64,000 nt of DNA. It comes from Tetraselmis striata. Its lineage: Eukaryota; Chlorophyta; Chlorodendrophyceae; Chlorodendrales; Chlorodendraceae. The position numbers were made by a program, and so were the translations under genes. Positions 1,498 through 60,120 of this stretch are shown here, in pieces. The notes below the pieces were generated by a model. That model was not told the origin of the DNA, ran no database searches, and saw only the letters and a list, made by a program, of their open reading frames with translations. The stretch lies in the NCBI GenBank assembly GCA_006384855.1, contig VCJN01000716.1, positions 1 through 64,000 on the forward strand, given 5' to 3'. The stretch's first letter is position 1, and each line of letters begins with the position of its first letter.

Positions 1498-3499
1498 CCT
1501 GAGTGATTCGAATCGAGTTTTTCCCCTACGAAATCCCGGATATTTCTGGACCCTGAAATCCCTTTATAATATGGTACGAGACTATTCTCCACCGTCCTCA
1601 AAACGCCATAAAGTACGCATACTCGTAGCCGCGCGTCGCAGGAATTTGGTGATGATATCCGGGTTGTCGGACTGCCGCGGGCGCCAACGACAGAAGACAA
1701 TAACGGCGAAGCGGAGGGACGAAGATCCATTGCCCTCCATCGGTCTCCACACTTTCTCCCAGCTAGCGACACCCTTTCCCTTCCGCCCACCGGTGCCATG
1801 TCGTCTGTTCTCGGCCACAAGAGAAGCGACAAGGCGTCAGTAGCCGAGGCGGCCAAGGAGGGCTTGCCGCCGCGTTGCTGGCGATTCGCGAGTATGGGTC
1901 CATGACTACCGGGCTCGACTACATCCTGCTCAGTCGATGCCGATGCACCGTAGTGACCACTGACGCCCCTACCGGTCACGCACGGTGCTGTGTTCGTGCG
2001 AGATCTGTCTGCATATGGCGCGGCTGATGTGAATTGACAGTCTTCTTTATTGCTTGACTAACATGCTGCTGTTAGCGACTGGTCGCTAGCACGATGAGTC
2101 GTTAGGATAGTTATCATACCAAGGTGATGTGGTAGTACGGGGAAAGTGGTGTCCCATGCGTGTTTATGCACCCCAGCGCCAACAGCCTTGCTTTTGCCTA
2201 CATGAAAGTGTTGACGACAACGGCTACCGCGTGGCCATATCGGGTGTATCGCGCTATCACGGTATTTCCCCCCAGCCGCACGACCTTGAGTAACATGCAT
2301 GCAGCCACGTGCGCACGGCCTCGGTGTAGCTGCGCGCATGTGCATGTGAATTGAATTCCAGTCCCATACTGATGTAGAGTGTATAATAATTTGGTACTGG
2401 GAGACATTACCAATTTTCAAGCCTCAATATGTTCGTGTCCTAGGAGCAACCAGAGCGCATGAGCGTAGTGCTGGCGGCTACTCGGCGCGCGCGGGGTCAC
2501 ACCTATACCGACTCGATAAAAAATAATTATGCTGATACTGCCTGCGGAATCTGTGAAACTATTATTAGCGACCTGCAGTGTGCATGTATCAGTATAAACG
2601 CGCAGAATAATACCCTGCTGTAGTCGCTACTAATAAAAAGCGCGGACGAAATATTAGTGCTGATGCATACGACGAGCAGCACGTTTTTTTTTCGCCCCCG
2701 GGACAGGACTGGCACCAGTGAAACCCTTGCAGCGTCTCTACGGGTACGACGGCCGTTTAGGCAGCAATGTTTGCAGCACGTATGGCAGCATGTTTGGCTG
2801 TCATGGCGGTTCCCGCCTCTGGTGGCCTGTAGCTGGATTTCCTTCTGGATTTTCTGAATGGATTTCTTGAATTTTGCAGCTGGCTCATGTAATCAGTACG
2901 AGCAGCATGCATGTAGCCATGTAGTAGCGGCTTTGCTGCGCGCGTGCTACCGCCGTGCTGTGTGATTATGGCCCGAAATTAATTAGGATAATGGGATAGG
3001 AGGGCGCGGAACATCAGCCGCCGGTAAATCGGCTAGCAAGGTCCCAGTCGCCGTCAAAATAAGGAAAAACGCCCAATACTACGGTGCCACTGCTTCGTAA
3101 AGGCCGAAGGCGCTGTGGGTACGGTAGCGATTACCTAGTGGTTGAGGACACTGTATAAATAACTTATACGAAGGGCAATTATAAACTCCTTCCCACTTTT
3201 AAAATAGCTCGACGCTGCCCCCTGGTACTACGCGTTATTCGGAGAAACGCCGGTTCGTCCCGCCTTGCGGCGCATCCCCGTTATCACGCTTGTGTCCCCG
3301 GGCCTGGACACAGTGCTGTAGAGGCAACACGCAGAAACGTAGCTCCGACCCATGTAGACCGCGCCCGCAGCATTCGTCGTCTATCGAGCACTAGCTGCGA
3401 CTTTGTGCCGCCCCTTGCGCCTCTGCCTTTGCTTCCGCTTCGCTATACTGCCCGCAAGTCGCCTCGTTTTGGCCGAAACTCTAAACACTTGAAACGATT
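1498..3499. other. Gene-poor stretch, nothing assigned
   Basis: Only short open frames without recognisable motifs or credible exon borders occur here. A copy of the recurring 9-mer TAGTCGCTA lies at 2621. Composition is mixed and less GC-rich than the exons elsewhere in the window. Confidence 0.5.
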
Positions 3500-4534
3500 A
3501 TGGGCGATGCACCTCGCCTCGCGGCCGTCTTGCAACCGCACAGCGGACAGCCGGCTCCCGTTGTCGCCGACGATATGGATGGCACGGCGAAGCCAATGAA
3601 ACAGAGTAATAACAAGGCGACTTCGGAGTCACCCCTGGGTATTGTGGGCTTCTACTTGGTGGTGGGTGCCGCACTGGCTAGTGCTCTTGCGCGCCACCTG
3701 ATGTGCTTGGTGTTTGGTCGTCAATCTGGCGACAATGCCATTTCCTCGGGGGGGCCGAGCGCAGACGGTCACCCCGTTGCTGAAGCGTCCGAGACGACCC
3801 CTGGCGCAAAGCTCGACGGTTCTTTCAAAACCAGACAGATTCACTTGGATGCCAGCCCGCCTCTTGTCGATGTGAGCAACAAAACACCGGACTCAGCTTC
3901 GGGCAGGGCCCGCGTAGTGTTGTCGCCCGGAACGCCGGGGCTAAAAAGTGAGCGTCAGCGGCAAGATGGCTACGGTAAAGGACGCAGCGCACTGCCGAGC
4001 ACAGCCGAGGACAGCGCACATGGCTCGGACGCCACTGGCGGCGAGGATACCACGTGCAGTGACGATGCTGCCACGGCGGAGGACGTGGTCGTGAAGGTGC
4101 AGCTCGAAAGTAGGTACGACTCTGCGGACTCGGCAATGCTTGAAAAGGCAGCACAGCCAGTGGCAGCCGACCTCGTCCAGATCCATCTCATCCTGGCACC
4201 AAATGGTCAGGTCGGCGTGGTCGAGCCTGCCGCTATTCCGGCTTCTCCAACTGCGCACCAGCTTGCAGCTGATGACTTCGACTCCAACTCGAGCCCCTTT
4301 TCGGATGAGCAGACCACTGGTGGGGCGACCGCTCCAGGCAGGCCAAAGGACGGCAGCGCCACTGCCACCGGCAGTCCATCCCCGCGTGTCTCCTGCCCTA
4401 CGTGTCTGCCCCGTATGCCTGGAAAAGCCAGGCGCAGTAGTGAGCCAGGCGAGCCCCAGTCTACCCATCATCAGTCCCTGGCGAAAGGTCTCAAGATGAA
4501 ATTCAAGCGAGCACGGAACAAGAGCACGTCTTGA
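3500..4534 (+). CDS. Intronless ORF, single-span membrane protein with disordered Ser/Thr/Ala-rich tail
   Basis: This open frame of 344 codons starts at an ATG and ends at TGA (4532-4534). Residues about 46-68 (GIVGFYLVVGAALASALARH and onward) form one hydrophobic segment, probably a membrane span or signal anchor. The rest is low-complexity, rich in Ser, Ala, Gly, Asp and Pro, with a CPTC motif near residue 300 and a basic C-terminus (Lys and Arg clusters over the last 20 residues). No enzymatic motif or known family was recognised. The length and the amino-acid pattern favour a real gene over chance, but there is no homology evidence. It has no close neighbours. Confidence 0.5.
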   Translation: MGDAPRLAAVLQPHSGQPAPVVADDMDGTAKPMKQSNNKATSESPLGIVGFYLVVGAALASALARHLMCLVFGRQSGDNAISSGGPSADGHPVAEASETTPGAKLDGSFKTRQIHLDASPPLVDVSNKTPDSASGRARVVLSPGTPGLKSERQRQDGYGKGRSALPSTAEDSAHGSDATGGEDTTCSDDAATAEDVVVKVQLESRYDSADSAMLEKAAQPVAADLVQIHLILAPNGQVGVVEPAAIPASPTAHQLAADDFDSNSSPFSDEQTTGGATAPGRPKDGSATATGSPSPRVSCPTCLPRMPGKARRSSEPGEPQSTHHQSLAKGLKMKFKRARNKSTS

Positions 4535-10356: not shown

Positions 10357-12787
10357 ATGACGCGTGCGGAGGCGCCGGTGGGCTCGCGGTCCGTGGAGTC
10401 GAGCCCGATGGGTAAGCCGTGGCGGGGCGTCGTGGGCGCGCCAGCTAGCGTGCCGGCGAGCCCGGCGCCCCGGGTGTGGGAAGACGGCAGCGACGCGATG
10501 CGGAGCAGCGGGCAGCTGCTGCGGCCCACGGTGGTGGCGCGAGTGCGGCCTATGCGGGCGGAGGAGGTGGCCGCGGGGCTGACGCCGGAGGTCCGCGTGG
10601 TTGGGGGCGACGCGGTGGAGATATCGCCGAGCGAGGGCGGCGCCGGGCGCCGCGTCGTGCGCTGTAGCGCCGCGCTGGGCGACACCGCTGGCAACGAGGA
10701 GGCGTACCGCGCGTTCGGGGAGCTGGTGGACTCGCTGCTGGAGCGCTTCAACGTCACCCTATTCGCATACGGCGAGACAGGCAGCGGCAAAACACACACG
10801 ATGGCTTACCTCACGGACCGCTTCCTCGCGGACCTGCTCGCGCAGGCGCGCTTCTACGACGCCTTCCGGGTAGAGATGAGCATGGTGGAGATAGAGAACG
10901 AGCGCATCTACGACCTTTGCGCCCGTCGCGGCGCCGACCGGCCCACCCTATCCATCCTGAACTACAAGGTCAAGGGGGCCAACTGGTGAGCACCGCCCAA
11001 TTCCACCACAATGAGCCGCCGGAACCGCAAGAATAAAAAGTCAATGATAATTAATACTTCAGGAGGAGGGAGGTCGTTAACGGCAAGGGACGGCAGAGGA
11101 ATAAGCACAGCCGGGCGATAAGCAACGGGGTTATAAGCAAGAGGACAATCGATTCGAGTTTGCCAGGGGCAGTAGGCCACCTATGTACACATGGTGTTGT
11201 CCACTTGTTGTCCCCACTCCAACCCCTCCTGCCTGCGCGCCCCGCTTTATTGAACCAGGCTGGAGCTCACCGGGCAGGCGCAGGCCCACAGCCAGCTGTA
11301 CGAGTGCTGGCGCCGCCGCAAGACGCTCTGCACCGACTCCAACGACACTAGCTCCCGCAGCCACGCTGTCTGCACCATTCGCCTGCAGGCCTCCAAGGCG
11401 GGCGTCAATTTCTCCAGCGAGGCGCACTTTATCGACCTCTCTGGTGCGCTCCCTTGCAGCCAACGGCGTGATTCAGCTCCCGCACAAGGAAGCTATCCTA
11501 TCACCACTACACATTGCGTAACGTTCAAAGTAAAAGGACAACGACCTCACATCGGAATGTCCGGCTGAAAATGCCACCCCGCGTATCTACCTTGGTGCTA
11601 CCGATATTGAGCCTCACTGCTGTATCCGCAACGACTTGCCGTGCAGGTTCGGAGCGCAGCGGCCTGGCCTCGCTGGATGGCAATCCCAACGCCAGTCTGA
11701 CGCTGCTGTCCATGATCGTGAAGGACATCGTGGCGGGGCGCGAGTGCAGCAACTTCCGGCAGAGCAAGCTGACGCACCTGCTGCAGCCGGCGCTGTCGGG
11801 GCGCTGCCGCCTGGGGCTGCTCTTCACGCTCAACCCCTGCAGCGGCCGCGGCGCGCTTTCCTCTGCCGCGTTTGCGGCGCACATGATGGCGATGCCACCC
11901 GCCAAGCCGGTGCGCAACCCGGTGGTGATGTCGGAGGAGCAGCTCGCGGCGGCGTCGGAGGCGCTGCTGCTGAAGGAGGCGCAGGTGGCGCGCGCGCTGG
12001 AGAGCGCGGAGGAGCAGCGCGCTGCGGCGGAGGCTGAGAGCGCTGGCTTGCGACGCCAGGTGAATGGCAACCCTCCTTGCTCCCCTTCGTGCCCCCCCCC
12101 CCCCCCCTCCCCCCCATGCCCCGTGCGTATAATGGCGCGAGGAGGCGCCCCGCGCCCACTCCTCTATCCTGCTTCTCGCGCCTTCCTGAGGCTGGCTGGT
12201 TGACTTGCTTGATGACGGTGCCTGGCCCAGCTGGAGGCGAGTCAGGAGGCCAACGCCGCCGTGCTGGCGGCTAGCGTCACCGCCAAGAGGGAGCTCGCGG
12301 CGCAGCTGTCCGCCAGTCGCGACCTCGTGGCGAAGGACCACGCTCTGGTGCGCCAGCTGATGGCCGCCTTTGAGGCGCACGCGGACGCGCTGGGCAGCTC
12401 CCTCGACCGCCTCGCTGCAGGCCTGGGCGGCTGCGCGGACGGCGAGGCGAGCGAGCTGCGCGCCACGCTGGCGGCCATGGGCGAGCTGCGCGCTGCGTTT
12501 TCGCGCCTGGACGGCGACTACGGCGCGGGGCGCCTGGAGGCGGTGGCGGCCGGCCTGCCGCGCGTCGCGGAAAGCTTGGCTGCGCTCAATCCCGACCTCA
12601 TGCTCAAGGTCGGCCGCCCTCCTGGTGCTCTAGCCAGTGCCAACCATAATGCCATACCACTGCCAGGGATAACAATACGATATGGCACATCCGTGTCTGA
12701 TTGAGATACTATTTAGCCGTATCCATCATGGCTTGCACAGGATTGCTGCATTTTATTATTTCTGCCACCCCCCCCTTTACTCCCCGC

Positions 12788-12836
<49 letters not shown>

Positions 12837-15800
12837 CATTAAGGATTTACATACAACTCTATTGAACCAAATAAGGATACACATGAAACTGGGAGTGTGT
12901 CCATAATCATTGCTTCACTGCTTTCATCACATGAACCCACTAAAATGGATCAGCGTATGTCTCTGGTCTGGGGCTGCTCAGACAGGAAGATGCGCCGCCA
13001 AAGCAGCACTTGACTTGTGCTGGCATGGTGCAGGGGCTGGTGGGTCGCCTGCGGCGTGCTGCCGCGGAAGGGCGCATGGGTGGCCAAGAAGTGGCACTGG
13101 TGGATGCGCTCGAGCGGCAGCTTAACCAGGACGCCGCGAGCGGGCTGGCCAGCGTAGAGCACAGCATGCTCGAGCTGGGCGCGCACGCGCAGGAGGCGGT
13201 CGCCGCAGGCCGGCACTCCGTGAAGCTGGAGGCGCAGATAGCGCAGCTGCACCGGGAGAATGAGGCATTGCGGCAGGAGCTCGCGCTCGGGCCGCCCAGC
13301 CTGACAGAGCAGGGTCGCCGGTACGCCCCCTCCCCAAGCCTCTTCTGTTCAGACGAATTGGTGCCCCAGCCCCAAGGGCTTTTAGGGGCTGGCATATATT
13401 CAATACCTCAACACATATTTTTAGAATCGGATTCCAAAACTCGGTGTTGTGTCTGATCTTGCGGATGTGTGCGTGGTGTGGGTCACCTACGGACCTCGAT
13501 GCTGACGCACAGATCTCGGAAGTCGCCATGTTCCCTGCGTGGAGGTCTTAAACCGTGCAAGATCCCGCGCCGCTTTCATGGTTTCTCATAAGTGCGCCAA
13601 TTTGTTGTTTTGCCCTATTATCGAGCTATATCGTTCTTTATTAGCTGTTCTGCGGACGGCGGTTATCAGTACCTGCAGCACAGGTAGCGACCTATGTTTT
13701 CTTTCAGCTCGTCAAGATACTGGTTTCGGAGCGTACCTCCCCCGCTCATCCCAGCCCATATCACGTTTATGTAGTCGCTGTCGTACGGCATTGTAGCTGT
13801 GTATTTGTAAGTGTACGTGGTTTTGGAGCAACGCACGAAGCTTCGGCGGAGCGGGTTTTGCGGTTGATTCGACATATGGTTTCGGAGACAAAGCCATTCC
13901 GGAGATTACCGTCGGGAAAACGGGGATCTCGGAGGGCAGGACATCAGGCGAGTCCGATGACGCGCCTCTCACTAGGCCCGTCGGACGCACGGCTGCGCGC
14001 CTTCGGAGAGAGGTCGCCGAGAAAGCGCTAATTCACTGGGCGTGTGCCCTGCTTCGCCCCCGCAGCGCGTGGCGCCGAGAATCAGGTGTGGAGCCGCCGC
14101 CGTCTGCTCCGACCGACCTCCCCGGGTCCGGCAGCTTTGACGCCGAGCTCGCCGCGGAGATCGGGCGCATCCCGGAGCCCGGATCCTACGAGCGGCTGAG
14201 CCACGTCGTGGGGCTGAGCAAGCTCTGCTGCCGCCGTTTTCTGGCCCTCGGTGGCATTGACCGCATGGTCAGCGCCGGGCTGCTGGACGGAACGCCCGCC
14301 GACGCCGTCCGCACCGCCGCGGCGCTGCCCACGTTTTGCGGCTTCCACGAGGCGCGCGACGCCGTGCGGCGTGCTGGCGGCTGCCAGCCGCTGGCCGTGA
14401 TGCTGTCAGTTGACGACAGCGACGAGCGGCGTATCGCCGCGGCGGCCGCCGTGCGGGATCTCTGCGTCGGCAACGCCGCCAACAAGGAGCTATTCTCCGC
14501 CTCGGCGATGCCCGCTCTGGTTCGCGCGCTGGGTAGCGAGAGCCAGCACCTGCAAGAGGCCGCGGCCGCCGCGTACAGCGAGCTTGTCGAGGGCTGTAAT
14601 GCTGGCAAGCAGGCGGCGCGGCGCGCGGGCGCGCCGGGGCAGCTGCTCCGGCTGTGCGCCAGTGCCAACGGCCGCGTGCGGCTGCAGGCAGTGCGCGCTC
14701 TCGCGCGCTCGCTGGCGGACGACCCGCCCAACCAAGACTTGATGCGCGCCGATGTGGTCTCGGTGTCGTCCATCGCACCGCCGACGACAGGCCTGGGAAC
14801 GCTCGCGGCGGGCCTGCGGGACACCGAGCCAGCGCTCCGTCGCGCGTTCGCGCAGGCGCTGCTCGCGTGCGTGTACGACAACTGCGCCAACATGGCGGCG
14901 CTGCAACAGCCGCAGCTCCTGGCGACTGCCGGGCTGGAGACTGGCGAGCTGCACCGCGCGCTTCTGCGCGCGCTGGCGGCCACACTGGCGGCTGAACCGC
15001 TCCTGCGCCCCTTCGCCTGGCCCTCGCCGCGTCACGCCGGTCCCGCCAGAGTAACGTGCGGACCCGACGGCGGTCTACCCCACTATGGTGTCCTCCTCGC
15101 CGGCAGCTGGAGCCCAGATGTGATCGGCATCGGGTCCGACAGCCCCCGGCTGCACGCCGCGCCGCAGTTTGCGCTCCACGCGCCCTCCCCGATGGCGCTG
15201 TCCATTCATCTCGCGCCAAACCGCCTCCTCTCGGCAACCGCATTCTCGACGTCGACCCATGGCCTTCGCCTCCTCTGCTTCACCGCCGCCGGCCCGAATA
15301 ACGGCCGCGCCGACGTGGTGTTCCACGAGATAGTTCTGCCGCCAAACGAGCCCGCGTCCGCAGCGGAGGGGCCGACAACGGACTGCGCCTCGCTGTCGCT
15401 GGACCTCCCCGCCGGCGACTTCACCGTGCTCGCGCTCTGCGGCGGCGCGTATGACGGCCCGCTCGGCTTTCGGCTCGCCTTTGCCGGCGAGCGCGAATTC
15501 GAGGTCGAGGCGGTCCCGGCGTTGGCGGGCTGGCACCGTGGCAGCAGCGGCCCCGCGTCGTCAGGCGCGTTCGCCGGCTGGTGGACAGGAGGGTCCGACC
15601 CTGATGGCGCTGCTTTCTGGCGCAACCCGCAGTTTCTCCTCACTCGGCACGTCGCCGCGCCGGTCGACAAGAGCTCCAACGACTCGACAGCCTCGCAGCT
15701 CGAGGACTCGATGAGCGCGGCCAGGAGCCTGCTCATGGGCGGGCCGAAAGAATCGGAGGCGCTGCTGGTGGAGATCCGCATCCGTCCTCGTGACGGGCAA

Positions 15801-18800
15801 TCGCCTCCAGAACTGGGGCTGTTGGCCTTCCACCATCCGTCGGCGACGGCGGGCGGTGACGGTCCCTGGCGTCGTTTCCCCGGTCGAGTGGAGCCCATGG
15901 TGGCGGAGAACGACTCCGGCGAACTGAATCGGCGTCGCAGCATGTACCGCCCCGTCGGCTCGACCGTGCTGGTTTCCGTGCCGGGGCGACTGCTCGTCGC
16001 ACTCGACTCAAACGACGACCAGCCGATCGGTGTTGTTCCCTATTTGATGAACGACGCCGCCGGCGACGTGGACTTCGACATCAACCTCTTCTCGACCACC
16101 CCTGCAAGGTAGATCGCCAACTGCAGAAAATGCACTCGTTTCCATTGATATTATCGCTCGATCTGAAATCGCAATTTGGTATTTATTAAGTGAGTACCTT
16201 TTCCTTATTAGCAGTGCCATCGCATCGTCCTCCAACTTATTTCTTCAACAAGCCTGCATGAACTGGGCCCTCTGTGACTGTGCTTGGTCTGTGTGTGATG
16301 TTTACGCCAGGCTGAGATCGATGGAGGACGGCGGTCAGGAGTGGAGTGCAGTGACGGCGGTGTCATTGCCGTGGGAGGCGGACGGTCAAGCAGAGCAGCG
16401 CCTCGAGCTCCGCAGCCCGTCGCAGCTGTGCCTGCGCGTGCTGAGCGGCTCGCCAGCCGGCAATTCCGAGGCGGTCGTGAGCCTGCTAGGCGCCGGCGGC
16501 GGGCGTGCCGACAGCATATGGTCGGTCGTTGGGCCGCTGCGCGGGCTCGCTGCCTACGCCGCCACCCTGCCGTCAGGTCGCTACCGCCTACTGGTGCAGC
16601 TGCTGGAGCCCGCGTATGCGCCGCCGCCGGAGGCGCTACTGGTACAGCTGTTCACGGAGGAGGGCGACGTGGTCCTGGATGCATCGACGGTGGTGGGCGT
16701 CGAGACGCCGCAGGCTCGGATGCCGCGGCCCTCACCGTGTGCGGCGGCGGAGCACACTGGAACGGACGGCACGCCGCCACGAGGCGCGGCCGCTGTGGGC
16801 GACGCGCTGCTAAGCGGCGTCAAGGCGTCGCAGTCGCACGGCGCCGCGCGCCACCTGCGCGAGGTGGTGGCGCAGCTGAAGCAGGAGGTGGCGTCGCTGC
16901 GGGTGTCGCACGGCGAGAAGGAGCTGCAGGCAGCGCGCACGCCGCCGAGCAGCGGCAAGCCCGCGTCGCCGCACCACCCGCAAAGACGTCACGCCGCCCG
17001 GCCCCCGCAGCGCCTCCGATATCGACCGCTCCGAAGTGGCGCTGCAGCCGCAACAGCCCCGCAGCGCTGCCTCGCCCGGAAGCATGTCGCGCTCTTCCCT
17101 GCGCGAGGAAAAGCCTCAGGTGAGGCCTGATGCTGGCAGGCGGACAGCGTTCCTGTTCCACCTGGCTGTTGCCTCGGTCTTACTAACCCACACCACCAGA
17201 CCCTCTCCTTTCCTTGCCCATGGCTTGCGGACTCTTTCAAGGCGGTACAGTGCTATTGTGTTCAACTCGTTATAATGTGAAATGGCGCGTTACTGACGGG
17301 AAAGCGGCTTGCACATCGCCAGGAGGTGAGTGGCGCGGACGCGCGCAGCAGCACCGCCAGGGCAGCTGAGATGAGCGAAGGCGGCAGCTCTGCAGTGCCG
17401 TCCCCAAGGAAGCGACGCACGCGGCCCTCCTCCTCCTCCCACGCGCGCAAGCCGTCGGATGGGTGGATCCCGGAAATGACACCACGCACAGAGCTGAAGG
17501 TACGGCTGGTGTGACGGACCCATCAGAGCAGCGCTGTGCGCATGTCCATTCGAAGCTGGCCATTACAAAACGTTATTATTACGCCAACGTATCGAGTGGA
17601 GCTCCGCTTATTCACAACGTACATGGTAGCGGTAGTAAACTTTGTCTCACGCGGGATGGATAATAAGCGCACTTTGGTAGTGGTCAACGTAATCAAAGGA
17701 AATAAAGTCGGCTAACTGGTACGTCGATGCTCATCGTAATCAGCATGTTTCTCGGTCGTAAACACATGTATGTGCTTGGCAGCGTTTTGTTATCACGTCG
17801 CACTAACCTTTATTAAGAAAGTCGGACTTGAGCTCCCGAGCCGACCTCCGCTCAAGCTGCAGTTGCGTGAACCCTTCTGAAGTTCTGTGAACTCTGAGAG
17901 TCGCCTTACTCAACGTGACTTTATTATCTGATTTGAGTCACCTCAATGTCCTTTGCCAACTTGAGTTTAAGAGTGCCAACTTCTTACCGCCCTGTTCTAG
18001 AGCACGGCATGAGGCATGCGAGATTGTGCCTCGTTTGCTGACTAACAGCGCCATGCCCACCGCAAATCCCTGCTGCAGATTGTGCGCGAAGAGCGCGACA
18101 TGGCGATGCAGCAGCTGGTGTCGATCAACATGGAGAAGGCGGCGCTGCACGCCAAGCTGCGCGAGAGCCTGGACCTGAAGTCGCACACGGCATCGCTGCG
18201 GGCCCCTTTGGCTGCTGCGGCCACGGCTGCGGCTGGCAGTGGCGCTCCCGGAACCACCAGTGCGTCGACAGAGCCTGCGGGCAGCAAGACGCGGGCGCGC
18301 CCCGCAGGCTTCAACCTGCCCCGCAAGGGACAGACCCCTTTGTCCAGGGCAGCTCCGGCCGACACGCCGCGCGACCTCCTGGCGTCGCTGACGGTGCAGA
18401 CGCCGCGCTCCAACCTGCCGCCCGGCACGCTGCAGTCGCTCACGCTGGCCACGCCGCGCTCCGCTGGCGGCAGCCGGGCCCGCAGCCTGCAGGCTTCCGC
18501 GCGGGGCACTCCCGCAAAGTCGCCCAAGCCAAGCGACACACACGCAGTGTCGCCCGCGACGGCTGCTGTCGAGCCTAGGGATGAGCACCCGGGTCAGGCG
18601 GCTCCGCCGGAGACGTCCTGTGATATTCTGGAGCAGACAGCCCCACCGCAGCCACGGAAGTCGACCGGCGTTGCGTCGGAGCAGTCGACCATGGAGTCGC
18701 CCAACCTGTCGCCGGTTCACTCGTTCGGTGCGAACTGTGAGGTGGGTGTCGGCAGCGACGCTGGGGCCATGGAGGACATGAGTGTGGAGTGCAAGGACGA

Positions 18801-19086
18801 GAGCAAGCCCGGCGCGGAGGCGACGACCGGCACGGTGGTGGTGAACGTGTCGACGGATGGCGAGGGTATCGAGGACAAGCTTGGCGAGATCCTGCTCGCA
18901 GCGGACACCGATTCCCGTGACGGCGGCAACGGCGTGCGCGAAGTCTCGGCGGCGGGGTCCAAGAGCAGCGTCGGCGCTGCGAAGACGCGCAGTATCTCGA
19001 TGGCCACGGCCGCCGCACAGATGCCGCCCAAGAGAGGGACGCCGAGCAGCCGGCCGGCGCCACAGTGCGCGTGCGTTATTTGCTGA
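10357..19086 (+). CDS. Multidomain kinesin: motor + ARM-like repeats + calpain-III-like modules
   Basis: Predicted exons are 10357-10985, 11259-11443, 11647-12059, 12231-12608, 13034-13313, 14086-16108, 16311-17119, 17323-17499 and 18079-19086; every junction keeps phase. The motor (about residues 58-350) has VVARVRP, the P-loop GETGSGKTHTM (from about 139), switch I NDTSSRSH (about 238) and switch II DLSGSE (Ser where DLAGSE is usual). FRQSKLTHLL follows. Coiled-coil-prone Ala/Glu/Arg-rich segments lie at about 370-620. Exon 6 encodes Ala/Leu helical repeats of armadillo type (about 640-930), then two calpain domain-III-like beta-sandwiches; the second has FWRNPQFLL. Exon 7 adds a third module and a short coiled coil. 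The Ser/Pro/Arg tail (from about 1600) is disordered. Exon 7 needs a one-base skip near 16975-16990. Expected role: microtubule motor with a large cargo-binding tail. Motor 0.95, full fusion about 0.8. Confidence 0.85.
12060..12230 (+). other. Kinesin intron 3 with C-tract near donor
   Basis: The donor GTGAAT follows CGCCAG at 12059. A C-run begins about 33 bp downstream (12093-12106). The acceptor is CCCAG at 12226-12230. This is an example of the recurring pattern of C-tracts shortly after 5' splice sites in this window. Confidence 0.7.
12789..12834. repeat. (GA)n microsatellite in kinesin intron 4
   Basis: About 23 GA units run uninterrupted inside the intron between 12608 and 13034, preceded by a short C-rich stretch. 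Confidence 0.95.
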
Positions 19087-25200: not shown

Positions 25201-25504
25201 GGGATGAGCTTTAGTGGTACTTTACACCCGCAGCAAGGACTAATCCTCAATAGAGATCTCCGACTGAGTAGCGACTATACTGCTAGCCTGCTCGCGGGCC
25301 ATGATCAGCATATATAGATATTAGCGACTATCATCAGCGCGGCCGGCGGCAGCATCCGCGCAAGACGATATGAAATAATGAATAATATAAAAAGTAGCGA
25401 CTCGCAGGCCGGACGACCCACCGCCATACACGCTGGGACACACTTGAGCACTTGCCCGCCCTGTTGTGCATTGGCCGGCAGGGCTCGCGGGCAGATCTGG
25501 CGCG

Positions 25505-28500
25505 ATGGGCGGCGACAGCAGCAGCGATGACGAGCCTTTGGCGGTGCGCTTCGCGGGTTCGGCAGCCGTTAAGACAGAAGGCGGCGCTCCGGCGGCCGTG
25601 GCGGTAGTGAAGGAGGAGGGCGGCGGTACCAGTAGCAGCTTCGCGCGGCGGCAGGCGGCGACGTCCGCGCCGCGCTCGTACGCCGATATGAGCGACGACA
25701 GCGACGACTTGCCGCTGGGGCAACGAGTGAAGGTGGAGAAGAACGGGACGCCGCGGAGCGCGGGCGCAGGAGGCGCCAGCCCTGCCGCCAGCCGCGCTGA
25801 GATGCTGAAGAAGCGCGCGGAGATGCTCAAGCGGAAGGCCGCGGCGGATAAGAAGAAGGAACTCGCGAATAGAAAGCGGAAGCTGGAAGAACATAATGCG
25901 AAAAAGAACGGCAAAAAGCCCGCCAAAAGTGGTTCGAACGGGACCCAGCCTGCTAAGCGGAAGAAGCCCGAGAGCGGCGGGGGCGGCGGCGGTGGCGGCG
26001 ACATCAAGTGGACGACGCTGGAGCACGGTGGTGTGGTGTTCCCGCCCGAGTACGTGCCGCACGGCGTGAAGATGAAGTACAACGGGCAGGAGGTGCAGTT
26101 GACGGCGGCGGAGGAGGAGGTGGCGACAATGTTCGCGGTGATGGCGGGCACCGACTACTTCGACAAGCCCATCTTCCGCGCCAACTTCTGGGAGGACTTC
26201 CGGGGCGTGATGAAGAAGAGCGGCAGCGGCAACCACAAGAAGCTGCTAAAGCTGGAGAATTGCGACTTCTCGCCCATCACGGAGTACTGCCTGAAGAAGA
26301 AGGAGAAAGAGGTGGAGGAGCGGAAGAAGCTGACTGCGGAGGTGCGCGCCGTCCCGCCCCCCTCCCGGGGGCCGCCCGCTGAGGCGCCCCGACGCCGGCT
26401 GAGCGGGTACCCACCCCGCGCGCGGCCTGCCCCCCCCTGCAGGACCGGAAGAAAGCTAAGGCGGAGAAGGAGGAGGCCGACAAACCGTACAAGACAGCGC
26501 TGGTAGATGGCGTGGCGGAGCAGGTGCGCGCCTGGCAGAGGGGGAGTTGCTGGCTTGTGAGTTTGTGGGTGTGCGGCGGTGGGTGCCGGTGGTGGTGTGT
26601 GGGTGGGGGTTCTTTGCGCCTCTTGAGGTGATGAAGTTGGTAGGTCGCCATGTGAGCACGGAGGGTTGCGGCCGCGTGGGCAAGTCGGCGACCCAGCGCC
26701 AGCAGATGTGGGCAGCTTGACGGCAGCAGCATCTGCTGCAGTGCGGCGTGGTGGAGCGCTGCCGTTGGGATGGGGAGGGGGGCTGGGGGCTTTAAATGCC
26801 GGTAAAGTTCCGCACCATCGCGCCTTAAAGACCAGGAGTCACGATCGAACATGATCCAATCGGGGTTCAGCTTTATGGCGATAACTTTCGGGCCGGATGC
26901 GCGCCCCGAATGGTTCGGCTCTTGGAATACCGGCGCCATGGCCTGACCTGCCCCCGGATGCCACCCAGGTGGGCAACTTCCGCGTGGAGCCGCCGGGGCT
27001 GTTCCGCGGGCGCGGGGAGCACCCCAAGATGGGGCGCCTCAAGCAGCGCGTGTACCCGCGGGACATCACCATCAACATCGGCGCCGAGGCCAAGGTGCCC
27101 GAGGTGCCCGCCATGTACGCCGGGCAGCGCTGGAAGGAGGTGCGCCACGATAACACGGTCACGTGGCTTGCCTTCTGGAAGGTGCGGCCAAATGCCCCCC
27201 TCCCCTTTCCCCGGGAGCACTCATCAGCTCAGCCGTCATCCCAACGTCATGGACGAGCCACGGGCACCCCAGACGTGCAGCACACATCCCCAAGTTATAA
27301 TCCATACCCATGGGGGCACCCGATCGGGCAGGCGGGGTGCAGAGGTGTGGAGCTAGGTTTTGGTGTGCGCAGTAGAGGGCAAGGTACCCCCGGGGGGGGG
27401 GGGGGGGGGGGGGGAGGGATGACCTCAGAGATGCAGCGTGCAGGGGCCGGTACGGGATTTCTGTGGGTCCAAGCAAAAGCGAGAGGGGGGGAGGGGAGGG
27501 GGGAAGAATATCACATGTGAAACGCGATTGCCGCGAGCATCTTCGCTGTGAGGAGGCACTCTCGGGGGGGGGGGGGGGTAGCATGGTGCGGCACGGGCGC
27601 CCCGCGTATGGCCGCGACTTGTGGCAAGAAAGTGGGGCCCAAGCGCGGCGCAGATGGAAGGTGGGTGGGCGGTGCGGCACCTATGGCGTGCCTTGGGTGC
27701 TCCGCGGCAGTGCAGCGTGGGTGGTATCGCGGCGACTGTCGATGTCAGCACAGGTTCCCCCATCCATCCGGGTAGGGTTGCCCCGGGATATGCAGCGTGG
27801 TCCCCGGACGACCCCGGACTACTCTGCGCAAACTTACAATGGATATCCGCAACCCGGGATCGTCCGAAACTGCAATCCCAAGCCGTATGGCGTAAGCCTG
27901 TGCCGCGAGGTCGTCTTGGTTAGCGCCGGATGGCGGCCCCCTCTGCTGAGCCGGGCTGACCCCCTCCACCTGGGGGCTGGACTCCCTGTTGCCGCGGACT
28001 TGGATTGGTGCAGGACCCCATCAACAAGGCGCAGTTCAAGTATGTGTGGCTGGCGGCCACCAGCTCCTTCAAGACCAGTTCCGACGTCGCAAAGTGCGCC
28101 CCCTCCCCCCTCCCCGCCTGCCCCCCTCTACCCGGGCTGTTGGCGTCCGCGTGTCCGGATGGTGGTGCTAAAGGGTGGGGGGCGCGATGGGGGATCAGGG
28201 GTGTCGAGACACATGATACCCCAGCCCCAAGTATCGTGGTCACAATATCCTAAAACGTCAAATCCATTCTTTAAAACCTGTCGGGTGCAACGCCCCCACC
28301 AGGGGAGAAGGGGGGAGGGGGGGGGGGGGGGGGTGTGAGTGTGTGGGTTTGGGTTGGGGGCGCGATTCAGCAGCGGCGCGCGTGCAACAGTTGGGGCCGC
28401 AAGGTCTATTAGAATGGGGGCAGTGCTAGGGTATGTATCATACGTTAGGGTATAGGGTGGAGACCCCCCCCCCCCCCCCCCCCCCCAACCACACACCCAA

Positions 28501-31500
28501 ACAAGTTAAGCCGTAAGCCCTAGCTGGGCCAGGTGGCTGGGTTGCCGGCGACAGCGCAGAGGGTGGCGGGGCCGGAAAGCAGCGGCGCCAGTAGAGCTGG
28601 GCAAGCGTGCGCACGTGGGGCAGGGGCTGCGCTCGGGCGGATGGTCTTGGTTGACGAGGTGGTGGGGGTGGAAGGTGCCAGGTCAAACTCCGTGTTTGAC
28701 CAAGAACCGAAACCCTAATGCAATCAGGCATGAAACCCTAGACCCCAACACCTCCCATGCCAGGCAGTGGCAATGGTCATTGTGTTTAGGGTATAAGGAT
28801 ATGTCTCTTTAGGGTATTCGGTATAGGGTCCTAGATTTTAGGGTCTTAGGTCTTTGGTCGCCTGACTGTGCGGGCCGCAGGTACGAGAAGGCGCGCAAGC
28901 TGAAGAATCACGTGGACGCGATCCGCGAGCAGTACACCAGCCTGGCCAAGTCCGAGGACTACCGCTCCAAGCAGATGGGCACCGCGATGTACTTCATCGA
29001 CCGGCTGGCGCTGCGCGCCGGCCACGAGAAGGACGACTCGGAGGAGGCGGACACCGTCGGCTGCTGCAACCTCAAGGCAAGCCCCCGCTGCGCCTTGACG
29101 CCGGGCGGCACCCCGGGGCTGATGTGCCTGTGCCTGTGTACACACACATGCACTCATAAATAATATATATATATATATGTAAGTACATGAGTATTTACGT
29201 GTATACTTTTATGTGCCGACGCGCCTATGAACCCGGATTGTACGCCCGAAATTCGGCTGGCATGCAACCTATAACAACATTCGCTATAGTTGCGTCTACA
29301 TTTGACGTGTGGTGGGCAGGGCAGGTCCTTCGCAGTGTTCCCATCACTGCGTCGGCACCCGTGAATATATGTATGCACACACACACACGCACACGCACAC
29401 CCACGCATGGAAGTATTACATATTTACCGGCGTGACGCTGTGTTGGTGGCGTGCGGGGGCCGCAGGCGGACAACGTGGAGCTCCTGGACGACCTGCACAT
29501 CAAGTTTGACTTCCTGGGCAAGGACTCCATCCGGTACGAGAACGTCGTGCTCGTGGAGCGGCACATCTACAACAACGTGAAGCTGTTCAAGAAGCGCTTT
29601 GGCGATGCCAAGAACAAGAAGGCCAAGCAGAGCAGCGACCAGGTGGACACACCGCCCGAGCCCCCCCCCCCCCCCCCCCTCCCCCGCCCGCGCGGCCGGC
29701 CTCGCCTCTTCTCTCTTTGCACTTGTAATACATCGATAATACACTAAATAATATACCTATACAATATGATGGAAGTTTCAGCAATTGGAAACAGAATAGA
29801 TTAGAAATAGAAAATGTATGGGTAGTTTGTATTATTTTGAAAGAAAACTGACAGATACACATAGTTGCATTGCGAATCGATTCCGGAAAGCACTAAGTAC
29901 ATTGTTTGAGTTGGTATTGTCCATCGATTATGGATTACTTCACGTGCACGGTTTGCGTTGGCCGTCCTTATGCGATCGATAGACGATGATGTAACGAGAG
30001 AATCGTATAGACAATTGTATAACGATAATATAACGATAGTATAGACGACAATATAACGAGATAGCGACGGCCGATTTTCGTATACTGGTTACGGGGTAAT
30101 CCCCACTGTTACGCAATTTCAACAGTATCGCGTACGCAGTGTTCCAGTGACACGGAATGCGCTAGACGGGTGGCAAAACACAACGGCTCGTCGTCGCCGC
30201 CCGGAGAAAGCATTGCCGCCTACGCGCTAGGCGTAGTACTGCCACTCGGGCGTATACTGGCCAGGTGGGGCATGTACGGGTGCCCCGCAACACGCTAGCA
30301 CACCACCGGCGTTTCTCGGTCCCCGCACGAGGCAAACCTTAGTACAACGGGGCAGCGTGAGGCTTGTCACAACGGAGTAAACAATTGTTCACAGAGGTGT
30401 GAAACGATTTTTCACAGAGGTGTGAAACAAAGTTCAGACATGTGAATGTGCAGCGTCGGACCCACGGATGTGAAAGGACGATGTGGGCGGAGTGTGGGTG
30501 TCACTGTTCTGGCACCACCCCCTGTGCTCACAGCAGTGCGTGAAACCACACACGCGCATTACAGACTAGTTGTAAGAGTGACCGTTTCTCGGGATGAGTC
30601 GAGGCGCCACTTGCTGACCCCTGGGCCTCAATCATACGGCTCTGCGTAATTGCCCCCCCCCCCCCCCCCCCCCCTACGCGTGGCTCTCTGTTTCTGCCCT
30701 TTGTATGTGGACGAGTATACATTTATAAAGTAAAAAGCAAAAAGTGTATATAAAAAAAATATATATGTGCATATAAAGTATGTATAAAGTATATAAAGAT
30801 GTACATGTGCATATAAAGTATGCATGAAGTATATGTATATGTATACGATATAAAGTTATGACTTCCGGCACTGAATCGCCACACGGCAGAGGGCCTCGTT
30901 CCCTATTGTACCAAGGAAAACACACCCCCGGCCAGTGAGAAGCCTTACCGATCCTCCACAGAATGCTGGCACCCATACAAATGTCGCCGTCGGCTTTGCG
31001 GTCAAGGCGGCACCAGCACCGGCAGCCGCTGACTTTGCTGTCTTGTGCCCCTTGTCCCCGTCGCCGCTCGGGCAGCTGTTTTGCGAGCTGGACGCCGGCC
31101 ACCTGAACACCTTCCTGAAGGACCAGATGGATGGGCTGAGCGTGAAGGTGTTCCGCACCTTCAACGCCTCCATCACGCTGGACCGGCTGCTGGCGGCGGG
31201 CGAGGGGAAGTTCCAGCCGGGCGACCTGGTGGACAGCAAGGTGGCGGCGTACAACCTGGCCAACCGCGAGGTGGCGGTGCTGTGTAACCATCAGCGCGCG
31301 GTGCCCAAGACGCACGAGCAGAGCATGACCAACCTGCGCGAGAAGCAGACCAAGCTGGACATTGAGCTGGCGGAGCTGGTGGCGAAGGTCGCGGAGGCCG
31401 AGGAGGCGGTGAGGACGGCAAAGGGGAAGGACAAGGAGAAGTGCAAGGACGCCCTGGAAAAGTGCGCTCCCCCCCCCCCCCCCTCCCCCCCCCTTCGCGT

Positions 31501-32190
31501 CTCCAGAGAGGGGGACAAACGGATGCGCACCGAGTTGATCACCGGGCGGCGTGGGTCGGTGGGGCGCGACCTGACACGAAGTCAAGGGATTGATTTAGGG
31601 CCGGGTCCCCCCCACCCCAACACGCCTGACGCCAATCACACCACATCACATCACCACCTGAGCAAACGCAACACGTGGCTACTTGTAGTTTCGTAGCCCT
31701 ATACTGCGTGAACCCACTGTTGTCCCCCCCCCCCCCCCCCACCCACCCAAACACACATCACCCGCTGGCAAATAGCAGGTACCTCCAAACAGTGTCAACA
31801 TACATCCGACTGCTGCACAAACACTCCACCCCACCATTGGCGCGATTTTGACTTAAGCGTGTCGTTGTGTTACACACCTCTCGTGGTTATTGTGCGTGCG
31901 TGCGTGCGGTGTGCTGAGCGAGCGGACACCCCCCTTCCCCTCTGCCGGGCAGGGCGGTCACCCGGATGGAGAACAAGGAGCAGGCGATCCAGAAGCTCAA
32001 GATCCAGGCGACCAACAAGGAGGACCTCAAGACGGTCGCGCTGGGCACGTCCAAGATCAACTACCTCGACCCGCGCATCACGGTGTCGTGGTGCAAGCGC
32101 AACGAGGTGCCCATCGAGAAGGTGTTCAACCGCGCGCTGTTCACCAAGTTCCTCTGGGCCATGGACGTCGAGCCCAAGTTCCGTTTCTGA
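25505..32190 (+). CDS. TOP1: DNA topoisomerase I (type IB, nuclear)
   Basis: Exons 25505-26341, 26443-26523, 26969-27181, 28014-28093, 28881-29076, 29466-29642, 31076-31461 and 31953-32190 give 735 aa in one frame. The enzyme nicks one DNA strand through a 3'-phosphotyrosine to relax supercoils ahead of replication and transcription. The N-terminal ~170 residues are acidic then Lys-rich (nuclear targeting), with a Gly run just before the core. The core starts at [20 protein letters not shown]. All five catalytic residues are present: Arg449 (LALRAG), Lys488 (FLGKDSIRY), Arg555 (KVFRTFNAS), His600 (CNHQRA) and the nucleophile Tyr694 ([13 protein letters not shown] at 32062-32064). A short linker coiled coil lies at about 605-680. 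Intron 5 has a GC donor (29077); five of the other six donors start GTGCG. The encoded enzyme looks intact. Confidence 0.95.
27392..28486. repeat. Poly-G/C tracts in TOP1 introns 3 and 4
   Basis: G-runs lie at 27392-27414 (23 bp) and 28317-28333 (17 bp), and a C-run at 28464-28486 (23 bp). The two G-runs are exceptions to the usual C-on-sense orientation seen within genes of this window. Confidence 0.9.
28725..28860. repeat. Degenerate telomere-like GGGTTTA/CCCTAAA cluster in TOP1 intron 4
   Basis: Several AAACCCTA and TTTAGGGTAT motifs occur within 135 bp, in both orientations. Similar clusters lie at about 39250-39330 (gatB intron 8), 49030-49200 (AlgH intron) and 62630-62670 (between kinase exons). 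They are scattered copies rather than a clean tandem array. Confidence 0.6.
29741..29905 (-). repeat. Dispersed repeat family C, copy 2 (TOP1 intron 6)
   Basis: On the minus strand the order GATTCGCAATGC, TTTTCTTTCAAAATAAT, ACATTTTCTATTTC, CAATTGCTGAAACTTCCATC matches the family. It is inserted in antisense orientation within the intron. Confidence 0.7.
30388..30446. repeat. Three palindromic TTCACAnnnnTGTGAA units at about 23-bp spacing
   Basis: Perfect copies of TTCACAGAGGTGTGAA lie at 30388-30403 and 30411-30426. A degenerate copy (TTCAGACATGTGAA) follows at 30433-30446. They lie in TOP1 intron 6. The dyad symmetry with regular spacing could serve as a protein-binding array or simply be a small tandem duplication. 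Confidence 0.8.
31462..31952 (+). other. TOP1 intron 7 with two C-tracts
   Basis: The donor GTGCGC lies at 31462 and a C-run starts 7 bp downstream (31469-31482). A second, 17-bp C-run lies at 31724-31740. The acceptor is GGGCAG at 31947-31952. Confidence 0.7.
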
Positions 32191-53089: not shown

Positions 53090-55228
53090 GCTAGAAGCCC
53101 GCGCGATCGCCAAGGGAACATCTGCTGCGTTCCCCACGGCAGTGGGGCACCCTGACTTCACCAAGGTGCCCTGCAGGTTCCCAATGAGGAAGAGGCCCTT
53201 CAGCTGACGCGGCGCCGCAGCGCCGGTCTTCGTCGCCTTTTTGGCCGCGGTAGGCGCTGGTGGGGACGCGGCCATGGGTACAGCCCTGGCCAGACGATAA
53301 GCGTGCTCCACATCCCTGGGGTTGATACCCGGCATTTTTGTGAAGTCGACGACCACCCGCACGCTCTCCCTCCTCTGCGGTGCACCGGCTCCTGGCTGCG
53401 TGCTGTGCTTGGTTGCGTCGTCGCCTTGGCGGCTTCTGTACTCCGCCAACACTTCGAACTGCAACCTCCCAGGCTGCGGGCAAGCAACGGCCGGTGAGGC
53501 CGTCCAGCAACGAATGGTACAGGCGTCTTGCGGGTACTCGATGTAGACACGGTGTTTCTCCCACGGCTCGCGGGTTTATAATTGGCAGCCCAGGACGGGC
53601 TTGGTGTCCAGGCTGGCACAACCTAAGGACACGCCCCGGTTCATGCGACCCGATCATCCCCTATTATCATAGATGTGTCTCAGTATCTCAGCGCTAGCGA
53701 TGTAAGTTTTCGAATAGAAGGACTGCTCCGGCAGTGTGGAATCATCATCGAACACCGAGCGCCTAGTGTGTTGAACCACAATGAGCAGCGGACACGGCAT
53801 GGCCGCCATATACCTGCGTACCCCACAGCGATGCCGTGCCTGCTGTTTGGCTGAAGCATCCCCATGCCAGCACCCTAGCAACCCACCTTTGTGTCTTCGA
53901 CCCGCCGTATCTCCAGCTGATGGCTGGTGGCCTTTGGATTGGACGGTGGAGGGCTCGCATCGGCTCTGCTTCCTTTTTGCCCGGCGTCGCTCAAGCCTGG
54001 AGAGGCATTGCCATCCCCATCGGCTGCCGGATCGCGGTCCCAGAGTGACCCTTGGATCCTGGTCAGTTTCCCAGAACACAGAGCTCAGTCAGGGAGCGGC
54101 CGGTCGGCTTGTCAATAGATCCAGCACGGAAGAACACAGAGAGCATGCAGTGTTCGAGTTGGAGCATTCGACGCGCCGTTTTCATCCGGAGGGCCGGTAG
54201 CTCATCACCCGAGAGGGGAGGCTGACCCCACCTGGGACCGTCAGCCAGCCTGGGCCATGTGCTGGGGCGCGACAGTGGCGGCGAGTCCTCGCGCGCAATC
54301 CTGGCGAGCACTAGCAGCAACTGCGCCATGCCGGGCAATGGGTTGGGGTCGATGTGCATGAAGGCGCCGTCCTGCAGGCGCGCCAGCTGGTCGACCGTCT
54401 GGCCCAACTGGCCGATGCCGCCCACTTCCGCATACATCGCCGCTGTATAGCGAGAGTGTGGAAGCATCGACATGATCGTCCGGTTCTTGTCGCTCGCGTT
54501 CAGCGCATTGAACTGCTGGGCATCCAACTTGCGGATCTTCTCCAATATCTCCTGGCGGATCCCCCGGTCGTAGGCCCATACATACGCGCCTGCCATGTCG
54601 AGGTACCTCTTCAGCATCATCTCGGGCACGTCCCCGGCCATTTCGTAGCCGCCGCCACCGCCCGCCGGTCTTGCCAGCGGCTCATTGTGTGCGGCTGCCG
54701 CCCGGACAACGCTCTGCAGGGAGGGAGAGGGCAAGGGGGCCGTCAAGGAGGGAGCCGGTCGCATCTTCAGGTAGCGTTGCAGCGATGCAGTCCGCCGATG
54801 TGATCAGAAGTAATCCTCTTTTTGACTCTCAACTCCGTTTGTCAATTGAACTTCAGCAAAGAGTAATAAAGGTGCAATGCGAGATGGTGTCCTTGCAGCA
54901 TCATGTTTAAAGGAGCAAGGAGTGGCAGCTATCAAGCGACCGCATGGTGCTGCCTCCAGGGGCGTAGGGGCGGGGGGGGGATTGGGGGTTGAGGGCACCT
55001 GCAGTGTGTCCGTCTGCAACAGATGGTCCGGCGGTTTTGTGAGGAGAAAGCTTGACGATGCACGAAACGCCCACTCGTCGACGGTGTTGGCGATTGCCTG
55101 TGCCGGCGACAGGCAAGCATTACACCGTACGCGTGTGAGGGCTAGCGAGGTGCTGTTCCAACTGTGATACCATGGTGACTTGACAGAGTAGGAAGGGGGG
55201 GGGGGGGGGGGGCTGTGGGTGGGTGAGT

Positions 55229-58200: not shown

Positions 58201-60120
58201 ATATACTGCACGGCTCGCTTCTCGGACTCCGCGCCCACCAGTGTCTTGCCACTCAGCCGCCGCAGAGGGGACGCAAGCCAGTGGAGCGCGTGCCTCGCGG
58301 CGCCCAGTGGCCCGGAAGCGGGTGGGGAACCGGCCGCCTGGTTCAGCCGGTCTTCGTAGCGGGCCGCGGCCTGCGCAATAACAGTCACCCATGCAGTCAT
58401 GTACCTCAGCCACTACACAGGGTAAACTAAGGCGCCCGTGGGCGGACACTGGCTGTCAGCACTGTTAACAGCCAATAGATGGTATATATATGTAAAATGG
58501 GATACTAGATACTGTACACCTTGCATATGTAGACACGCTGCATACATACAGATGTACTTGTACAATCCACTTCGCTGCACACACTTGCATGCACATCAGA
58601 CATGTTGATAGATGTGAACAAATTATAGAACCGTCGTGGATAGTGTCCATGACAAATCACGGCTGGCTCTGTCAGACCAAGGATGAACCAACGCAATCTA
58701 ACGGGACTATATTCGATGGACTTTGGGCTGTGTCGATCAGCCGAGCATATGGCCTAACGAACTGCTGCAAACATGCAGCAAATCGAGCTGCTACCGTAGC
58801 TTGGGCACCACCGCCCGGGGAGAAATGTGGCGCGCTCAAGCAGGCGCTATACAACAAACGAACGAGATTTACCTGACGGCTGAAGAAGAGGGGTTGTTTG
58901 TCCAGGGTCGCGAATTGCGTTGCGCGCTGCGGCTGATGCTGTGACGATGGGTCGGTGCCCTTGCCGGCCACGCTCCGCCCTGCCTTGTTTCGCGCGGGCG
59001 CCATGAACCCGCACATGGTTCCGGCGAACACCGCGGGCACGAAGGGCGTCAAAGGAGGGACGGGCAATGCCGCCTTCGCTCCGCCTTTCGGCGCCATCTC
59101 AAACTGATCATGCACGGCAGCAGTTCCTCCGACTCCTCCTCCCCCGGGGCGCTGCTGAGTGCTCGCCTGTTCGACGACGCTGCCTCCGGCGGAAACTGGG
59201 ACTCCGAATAATATGGGCGCCGCCGGCTCGGTTGCGCGGCTGGTCGGCAGCGTCATAGTACCCACGCCGCCCTCCTCGCCGCCCCCGGTCACGCCCCCCG
59301 AGTCGGCAACTATGAACTCCGAGAAGTCGGCTCGCAGCCCCCGACGGAAATCCGCGGCAAGGCGGCGGCCTGCTGTGACCGTCGGCACCAACTGGCCTTC
59401 GTCGGCGCGATGCCATCCATTGGGACTGTGGTGTTTGCCCCGATGCGGGCCAACCCGTGCTGAATCCCAAACGCGCACGCCCGGGGACAGTTGGATAAGG
59501 CCCGCCGACCAGTCGGATGAGTACTCGTAGGCGGGTGCTGACACTGCCGGCGCCCGCAGCTCCCATATGCAGCTGACAGCCTCGCCGCTACTGGCGGTGC
59601 CCAAGATGGTGGACTGTGCAGGCTGTATTTGACGGTTCGATCCAGAGCAGCGGGACGCTTCCATCTCGCTGGCATATATGATGCGGGCCCGCCAACAACG
59701 CGTAGTCGGAACCGCGTGCACACCGCCAATAGTGCCGGCAGCTCCAGCTACCCGCTCAATAGCTCGATACGCGCCCTCGTACAACAGTGGCGATTGCACA
59801 ATCACCGGCACCCTGCCTTGCCAAACCGCCGGCACGAGAGGGTGAGGCTCGTCGTCTGGGCTACACGGCCCTCGAGCGCTGACGCCTATTAGAATTGCAG
59901 GACAGGACCCAGAGCAGGAGCTGAGTGCCTGCACCGGGGTGGCAGATTCATACAAAATGCTGATGGTGTCGGCTGCTTGCTGCGCCAAGCTTTTACGGTA
60001 TGCGCGCTCACTGCGGATGTGAAGAAATGAACAAAGTGCCGCTGTGCAGCCGGCCGCCAGGCGATAGCGACAAGGGAAAGGATGGCCCTGGCAGAACAAG
60101 ATATATTGGTAAGACTGCAT
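53090..60120 (-). CDS. Uncharacterised multi-exon protein
   Basis: Exons in transcription order: 60120-58873, 58370-58191, 58046-57906, 56314-56042, 55097-54999, 54713-54232 and, less surely, about 53570-53090. The first six have AG/GT borders and the first five end in phase 0, which supports one gene of roughly 950 codons. The N-terminus has a hydrophobic stretch (about residues 20-35). Exon 1 is Gly/Pro/Ala-rich. Exons 2-4 carry LVGAESEKRAVQYITMK, RYCLVGEDSA, TPVYRVPGIKIVIPSQL and IRMAPLFLCREQLEALLGAAF. The last resembles the PLFF-x2-DL motif of Tic22 import proteins, a weak similarity only. Exon 6 is helical (MMLKRYLDMAGAYVWAYDRG). No catalytic motif was seen. The link from exon 6 to the last segment is out of phase, so a short exon is missing there or the last part is a separate gene. 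Confidence 0.5.
55195..55439. repeat. Three poly-G tracts in an intron of the uncharacterised gene
   Basis: G-runs lie at 55195-55212, 55229-55256 (28 bp) and 55422-55439. All are C on the sense (minus) strand of the surrounding gene. Confidence 0.9.
56315..57905 (-). other. Long intron of the uncharacterised gene, nothing else assigned
   Basis: 1.6 kb separates the exon ending SQL (57906) from the exon beginning EADAG (56314). Two TAGCGACTA-like motifs (56645-56677) and an ATCACGTGAT palindrome with a second CACGTG half (about 56693-56704) lie in it. Plus-strand frames in 57480-57840 show no motif. Confidence 0.45.

Follow-up and report, generated by a model that had tools for sequence, protein, structure and literature searches.

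A Tetraselmis striata gene predicted to encode a kinesin of KIN-E-type domain architecture

Gene structure of the locus

The sequence analyzed here (the window) comprises positions 1 to 64,000 of contig VCJN01000716.1 in the Tetraselmis striata genome assembly GCA_006384855.1. Positions 10357-19086 of its forward strand carry a spliced gene that combines a kinesin motor domain with armadillo (ARM) repeats and calpain domain III-like (CBSW) modules, and all 8 introns used in the gene model are of the GT-AG type. Two related proteins recur below: P0005, an annotated Tetraselmis protein (jgi/Tetstr1/428028), and P0014, a 928-residue MMETSP open reading frame from a partial transcript, which corresponds to the tail only. 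The exons of the model are:

10357..10985, + strand: exon 1, with the start methionine, N-terminal extension and first half of the motor; open frame, GT at 10986
11259..11443, + strand: exon 2, with switch I and the start of switch II (DLSG); GT-AG introns
11647..12059, + strand: exon 3, with the remaining switch II (GSERSG), a shortened loop 11/alpha4, the end of the motor and the start of the helical stalk
12231..12608, + strand: exon 4, helical stalk, residues 410-535; open frame
13034..13320, + strand: exon 5, remainder of the stalk; alternative end at 13313
14066..16108, + strand: exon 6, 2,043 nucleotides (nt) unspliced, with the ARM repeats and calpain III-like modules 1 and 2; alternative start at 14086
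16311..16964, + strand: exon 7, with the third module and a putative coiled coil; aligned with P0014 over GQEW...LMVQLLS...VAELKQQV...SH
17011-17119, 17323-17499 and 18079-19086, + strand: low-complexity tail, one open frame over three pieces; stop at 19084-19086

Translation of exons 1-6 together with the greater part of exon 7 yields 1,531 residues in a single frame, and GC content is 0.66-0.74 in the exons versus 0.44-0.68 in the eight long introns. The initial annotation had described one continuous frame of nine exons, which does not hold as worded: the nine-exon coding sequence amounts to 5,929 nt, which leaves a remainder of 1 on division by three, and stops are met after exon 7. Intron 4 holds a perfect AG dinucleotide repeat (12790-12834, 22.5 copies). 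The following features lie within the gene:

10540..11885, + strand: kinesin motor domain (residues 62-351, exons 1-3; PF00225)
10771..10794, + strand: P-loop GETGSGKT (residues 139-146, from sequence)
11341-11364, + strand: switch I NDTSSRSH (residue 238, from sequence)
14136..14993, + strand: ARM-repeat domain (about residues 655-940)
15075..15518, + strand: calpain domain III-like module 1 (CBSW1), with 35% identity to module 1 of P0014
15519..16106, + strand: calpain domain III-like module 2 (CBSW2), with FWRNPQFLL at 15615-15641
about 16336-16695, + strand: third module, a weak assignment; conserved in P0014
about 16840-16932, + strand: putative coiled coil, a stretch conserved in P0014

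The kinesin motor and stalk

The proposal of a kinesin motor with intact nucleotide motifs is borne out. The PF00225 match (5e-45, 154.3 bits against a cut-off of 29.3) spans positions 1-324 of the 327-position model, and the P-loop, switch I and switch II (DLSGSE at residue 269) are all intact in the sequence. The motor matches 154 PDB sequences at E<=0.001, and the 60 best of these, nearly all named kinesins, score from 85.5 down to 69.4 bits with no clear family preference, since kinesin-2, kinesin-1, Ncd, KIF15, KIF13B and others score similarly among them. Within loop 11/alpha4 (11647-11720), 7 residues fewer separate GSER from NxSL than in the aligned kinesin-2 and kinesin heavy chain sequences, and the same 7-residue-short loop follows GSER in a paralogue described below.

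Phylogenetic inference used 14 motor rows (13 of them different), a set without plant ARM kinesins, KIN-E and the six own-genome kinesin loci L001-L004, L007 and L008, none of which yielded a usable open frame. The resulting tree pairs the motors of the window gene and P0005 at 100/100, with a branch length of 3.54 separating them from the remaining 12 rows. The motor tree that had been proposed yields a firm pair; its reference set is too small for placement in a kinesin family and shows only the divergence of the pair.

About 300 residues separate the motor from the ARM domain. By a crude heptad score, residues 366-450 and 366-420 of this stalk were equalled by 62 and 34 of 2000 shuffles, respectively, and two other stalk pieces did not rise above the shuffles (1912/2000 and 342/2000).

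ARM repeats and calpain domain III-like modules

The predicted ARM-type repeats are likewise recovered. Scanned alone, the region matches PF00514 at 9.8e-13 in 3 stretches, and its structure matches are led by designed ARM proteins, followed by ARMC4, VAC8, importin alpha and beta-catenin. An importin-alpha-like ARM domain lies C-terminal to the motor, as it does in KIN-E. KAP3 is a separate subunit of kinesin-2. This ARM adaptor (9w9i) is one of many ARM proteins that score alike against the ARM domain of the window protein. Plant armadillo-repeat kinesins have a motor, then a coiled coil and ARM repeats, and are not known to carry calpain III modules; we set them aside as closest relatives on the basis of this architecture.

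Of the three calpain III-like modules in the initial annotation, the first two are supported as such by way of their relatives. Against a Pfam cut-off of 21 bits for Calpain_III (PF01067), module 1 of P0014 scores 28.0 bits, and the paralogue tail scanned alone also exceeds the cut-off; module 2 of P0014 reaches only E 0.26. Module 2 of the window protein contains the FWRNPQFLL segment singled out earlier, and P0005 and P0014 both keep its FWRNPQ and W-x-GG segment, in keeping with the W...GG...(F/Y)xxNPQ(F/Y) signature shared with calpain domain III (PF01067; m-calpain 1kfu/1kfx and the distal domain of calpain-7, 2qfe). Furthermore, a low-confidence AlphaFold2 model of P0014 module 1 aligns first to calpains. 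The third module matched no Pfam family in the scan of the window protein, though it is conserved in P0014. Unlike in calpains, no CysPc protease core was found with these modules: Peptidase_C2/CysPc is absent from the 12 Pfam families that the scan of the 1,531 residues listed at E<=10, in agreement with the claim that a protease domain is lacking.

The heptad score of the putative C-terminal coiled-coil stretch is reached by 915 of 2000 shuffles; the P0014 model predicts a helix there, with block pLDDT of 66-77 mid-helix. The remaining tail, about 430 residues, is rich in A, S, R, P and T.

A colinear paralogue indicates a single gene

The locus was compared with the rest of its genome (224 Mb, 2,903 contigs). 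A second locus, the paralogue, lies on contig C964 (L018/L021); over blocks of at least 900 bases, a copy of it on C12 (L019) shows 90-97% identity. The two copies are possibly haplotigs; the window gene occurs at full identity on its own contig only. P0005 matches the paralogue locus piecewise, mostly at 94-100%, with lower identity for pieces that span introns or indels. In module 1 (P0005 residues 947-1032), the C12 copy (L019 9165-9422) reads in the P0005 frame throughout at 100%, and the C964 copy (L018 8980-9330) reads in a frame resembling other calpain III modules.

The window protein aligns with P0005 over 1,120 columns at 40% identity (622 bits, rising to 654 bits when the module 1 exon is read from C964), and motor, stalk, ARM repeats and calpain III modules follow one another in the same order in both. 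The intron before exon 3 splits the same Gly codon of switch II in window gene and paralogue, and the preceding intron lies at a homologous place, its splice site in the paralogue being approximate. P0014 shares 28% identity with the exon 6 protein over 413 columns (104 bits), and the likeness carries on into module 3 and the putative coiled coil. The domains and their order are conserved, then, in a paralogue of 40% identity and, for the tail only, in P0014. Homology to P0014 starts where P0005 has an exon start, so that the 5' part of this transcript may be unspliced; P0014 is uninformative about a motor in its species.

These comparisons bear on whether a motor gene and an adjacent ARM/calpain III gene were wrongly joined. 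The intron crossed by the stalk-ARM join is, at 745 nt, longer than any other in the model, and the initial annotation's 13313/14086 is in frame, as is, equally, 13320/14066 (GTACGC...CCGCAG). However, in the paralogue locus and in P0005, motor and tail belong to a single chain and keep the same order; the fusion is therefore not a gene-model artefact, the claim that motor, ARM repeats and calpain III-like modules share one protein stands, and we regard two separate genes as very improbable. The other proposed join, 16108/16311, is upheld: the spacing of FSTTPAR|LRSMEDGGQEW is identical to that of FSTMPGLELRPYSRGQEW in P0014 and to that of FSTQSGVQLLGYAPEQEW in the paralogue, where it is read through without an intron.

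Searched with the ARM/CBSW tail at E<=1, the genome returned 9 matches: 2 in the window, 2 in the paralogue (C964 and C12) and 5 weak ones confined to the ARM part (E 3e-5 to 0.09). One of the latter, on C1881 (L020), is by eye an ARM protein with no motor in the listed frames. A Calpain_III profile search of the genome was null, as it was in 14 control genomes, and is hence uninformative.

A frame change downstream of the folded domains

In exon 7, module 3 and the putative coiled coil are read in a frame that lies one base off the one used onward into exons 8-9; the change falls between about 16,940 and 17,010, downstream of all folded domains. To close the frame, one has to assume a tenth exon or a one-base difference in assembly or allele. 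Many GT-AG pairs could bridge the change. With one of them, a 46-nt intron at 16965-17010 that creates the tenth exon, the conserved stretch of the putative coiled coil is retained and the predicted protein runs to 1,960 residues, with a single stop at its end. Small indels in the assembly are plausible, because the C964 and C12 copies of the paralogue differ in frame inside module 1.

The frame change could alternatively be a real lesion in a decaying duplicate, the paralogue alone keeping the role. This would account for a frame that does not close in nine exons and for the absence of the window gene among protein matches in which the paralogue product is present. Nevertheless, across about 1,500 codons the frame is open and the motifs and every folded domain are conserved, the exons have a higher GC content than most of the long introns, and the break sits in the low-complexity tail, where a splice pair can close it and where small assembly indels such as those suggested by the paralogue copies may be at work. 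We consider a pseudogene unlikely.

Protein searches

Protein searches depended on shared 5-residue words. The whole-core search, in which scoring was limited to the 7,991 candidates with the greatest number of shared words and which was, we think, swamped by alanine-rich words, returned 4 proteins, all with a Pfam Kinesin domain and 3 of them named kinesins. A motor query (residues 205-400) returned P0005 and 8 weaker proteins, all with a Kinesin domain, and a query with the paralogue CBSW region returned only P0005 and P0014 at E<=10. The window gene itself was not among the matches, whereas the paralogue product was. None of the 14 distinct matched proteins is named as kinetoplastid, 7 of them (P0004, P0006, P0008, P0010, P0011, P0013 and P0014) carrying no organism. 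Since a distant KIN-E would be out of reach of searches that need shared 5-residue words, its absence from these results is uninformative.

Neighboring sequence

An ordinary nuclear neighbor gene, encoding DNA topoisomerase I, has exons at 25448-26503 and 30875-31693 (+ strand); PF02919 (112.7 bits) identifies its N-terminal DNA-binding part and PF01028 (106.9 bits) its catalytic core. Long open frames at 3485-4531 (+), 54066-54803 (-) and 58675-60156 (-) have no Pfam match at E<=0.01.

Relationship to KIN-E

The same module order has been described for Trypanosoma brucei KIN-E (Tb927.5.2410), which comprises a motor, an importin-alpha-like ARM region and two calpain III-like domains (An & Li 2018, PMC5993322); the likeness noted here is one of described architecture. 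According to that report, deletion of the calpain-like part (residues 713-997) leads to loss of KIN-E from the flagellum, and the importin-alpha-like part binds FLAM3 (PMC5993322). KIN-E is elsewhere listed as flagellar and tip-enriched (PMC8141408). The kinesin calpains LbrM.17.1220 of L. braziliensis and TcCLB.511307.10 of T. cruzi, described as KIN-E orthologues (PMC6759280, PMC7552305), have the same order of kinesin, three ARM repeats and CBSW; these kinetoplastid proteins have a single CBSW named, versus tandem modules in the alga. Kinesin, ARM and CBSW also appear among the domains of the calpain family in a published figure legend (PMC7912814). In the open-access literature consulted, we found no report of a motor-ARM-calpain III kinesin outside kinetoplastids, which is weak evidence of absence: the main text of a 2010 kinesin survey of 45 eukaryotes contains neither calpain nor armadillo (PMC2867816), and KIN-E does not occur in the available text of PMC13413365. 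The combination, which the initial annotation took to be unusual, is thus unusual and not unprecedented: KIN-E and its counterparts in Leishmania and T. cruzi share this architecture (PMC5993322, PMC6759280, PMC7552305). What is new is that a green alga has it, in two paralogues.

Taken together, these data suggest that the locus is probably one Tetraselmis gene for a kinesin of KIN-E-type architecture, with the ARM repeats as a putative cargo dock and the calpain III modules as a putative flagellar or membrane address. By analogy, it is most likely a kinesin for flagellar or membrane-associated cargo that works like KIN-E. Judging from general kinesin biology, the N-terminal motor would hydrolyze ATP, dimerize and presumably be plus-end-directed, a partly coiled-coil stalk would link it to the ARM domain, and, as the T. 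brucei experiments suggest, the ARM domain would dock a protein cargo or adaptor, while the tandem calpain III-like sandwiches would direct the motor to the flagellum or to some other membrane site, perhaps through lipid binding in the presence or absence of calcium. The coupling of motility to membrane or ciliary cargo put forward in the initial annotation would fit what is reported of KIN-E. Tetraselmis is a four-flagellate alga, for which a flagellar role would be natural.

Several points weigh against this interpretation. The shortened loop 11/alpha4 might alter microtubule binding, so that motility is not assured, and the motor is very divergent, as the 3.54 branch in the small tree attests. 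The calpain III-like copies of the window gene fell below the Calpain_III cut-off: module 1 alone has no Pfam match and module 2 reaches 13.1 bits (E 0.12). Module 1 of the paralogue alone (18.6 bits) and the full-length paralogue composite (19.9 bits) also stay below it, P0005 as annotated has no Calpain_III match at E<=1, and both AlphaFold2 models are poor across their CBSW parts. The frame break in exon 7 makes the far tail uncertain, and the window gene may be a weakened allele. Finally, common descent with KIN-E would be argued from domain architecture.

One alternative is convergent fusion, in which the alga would have assembled motor, ARM repeats and calpain III modules independently from a different kinesin, with a function unrelated to that of KIN-E. 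The much longer stalk of the window gene, the possible third module and the long low-complexity tail all differ from KIN-E, whose ARM region begins at residue 413 (PMC5993322), a position that leaves little room for a stalk; most kinesin architectures in the 45-eukaryote survey were specific to one organism (PMC2867816), and no protein named as kinetoplastid was matched. Against this, three unusual modules occur in the same order, and word-based searches could not have reached a distant KIN-E. We regard convergence as possible, if less than probable.

Implications

Under the preferred interpretation of a KIN-E-type kinesin, the presence of a colinear protein in a green alga with flagella would mean that the design is bound neither to parasitism nor to the flagellum attachment zone, and hints that the KIN-E-like type of flagellar-tip motor is not confined to parasites. 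Tentatively, motor, ARM repeats and tandem calpain III modules might define an ancient eukaryotic class that predates the split between kinetoplastids and green algae and has since been lost in most lineages, its original task being the delivery of ARM-bound cargo to a site at the flagellar tip or membrane that is addressed by lipid or calcium, with control of cell shape a later development in trypanosomes. The alga would offer an independent system in which to study the role of calpain domain III without an attached protease, and the way in which ARM repeats and putative lipid-binding modules guide a kinesin into cilia. Should the gene be orthologous to KIN-E, the ancestral kinesin set would gain one more class.
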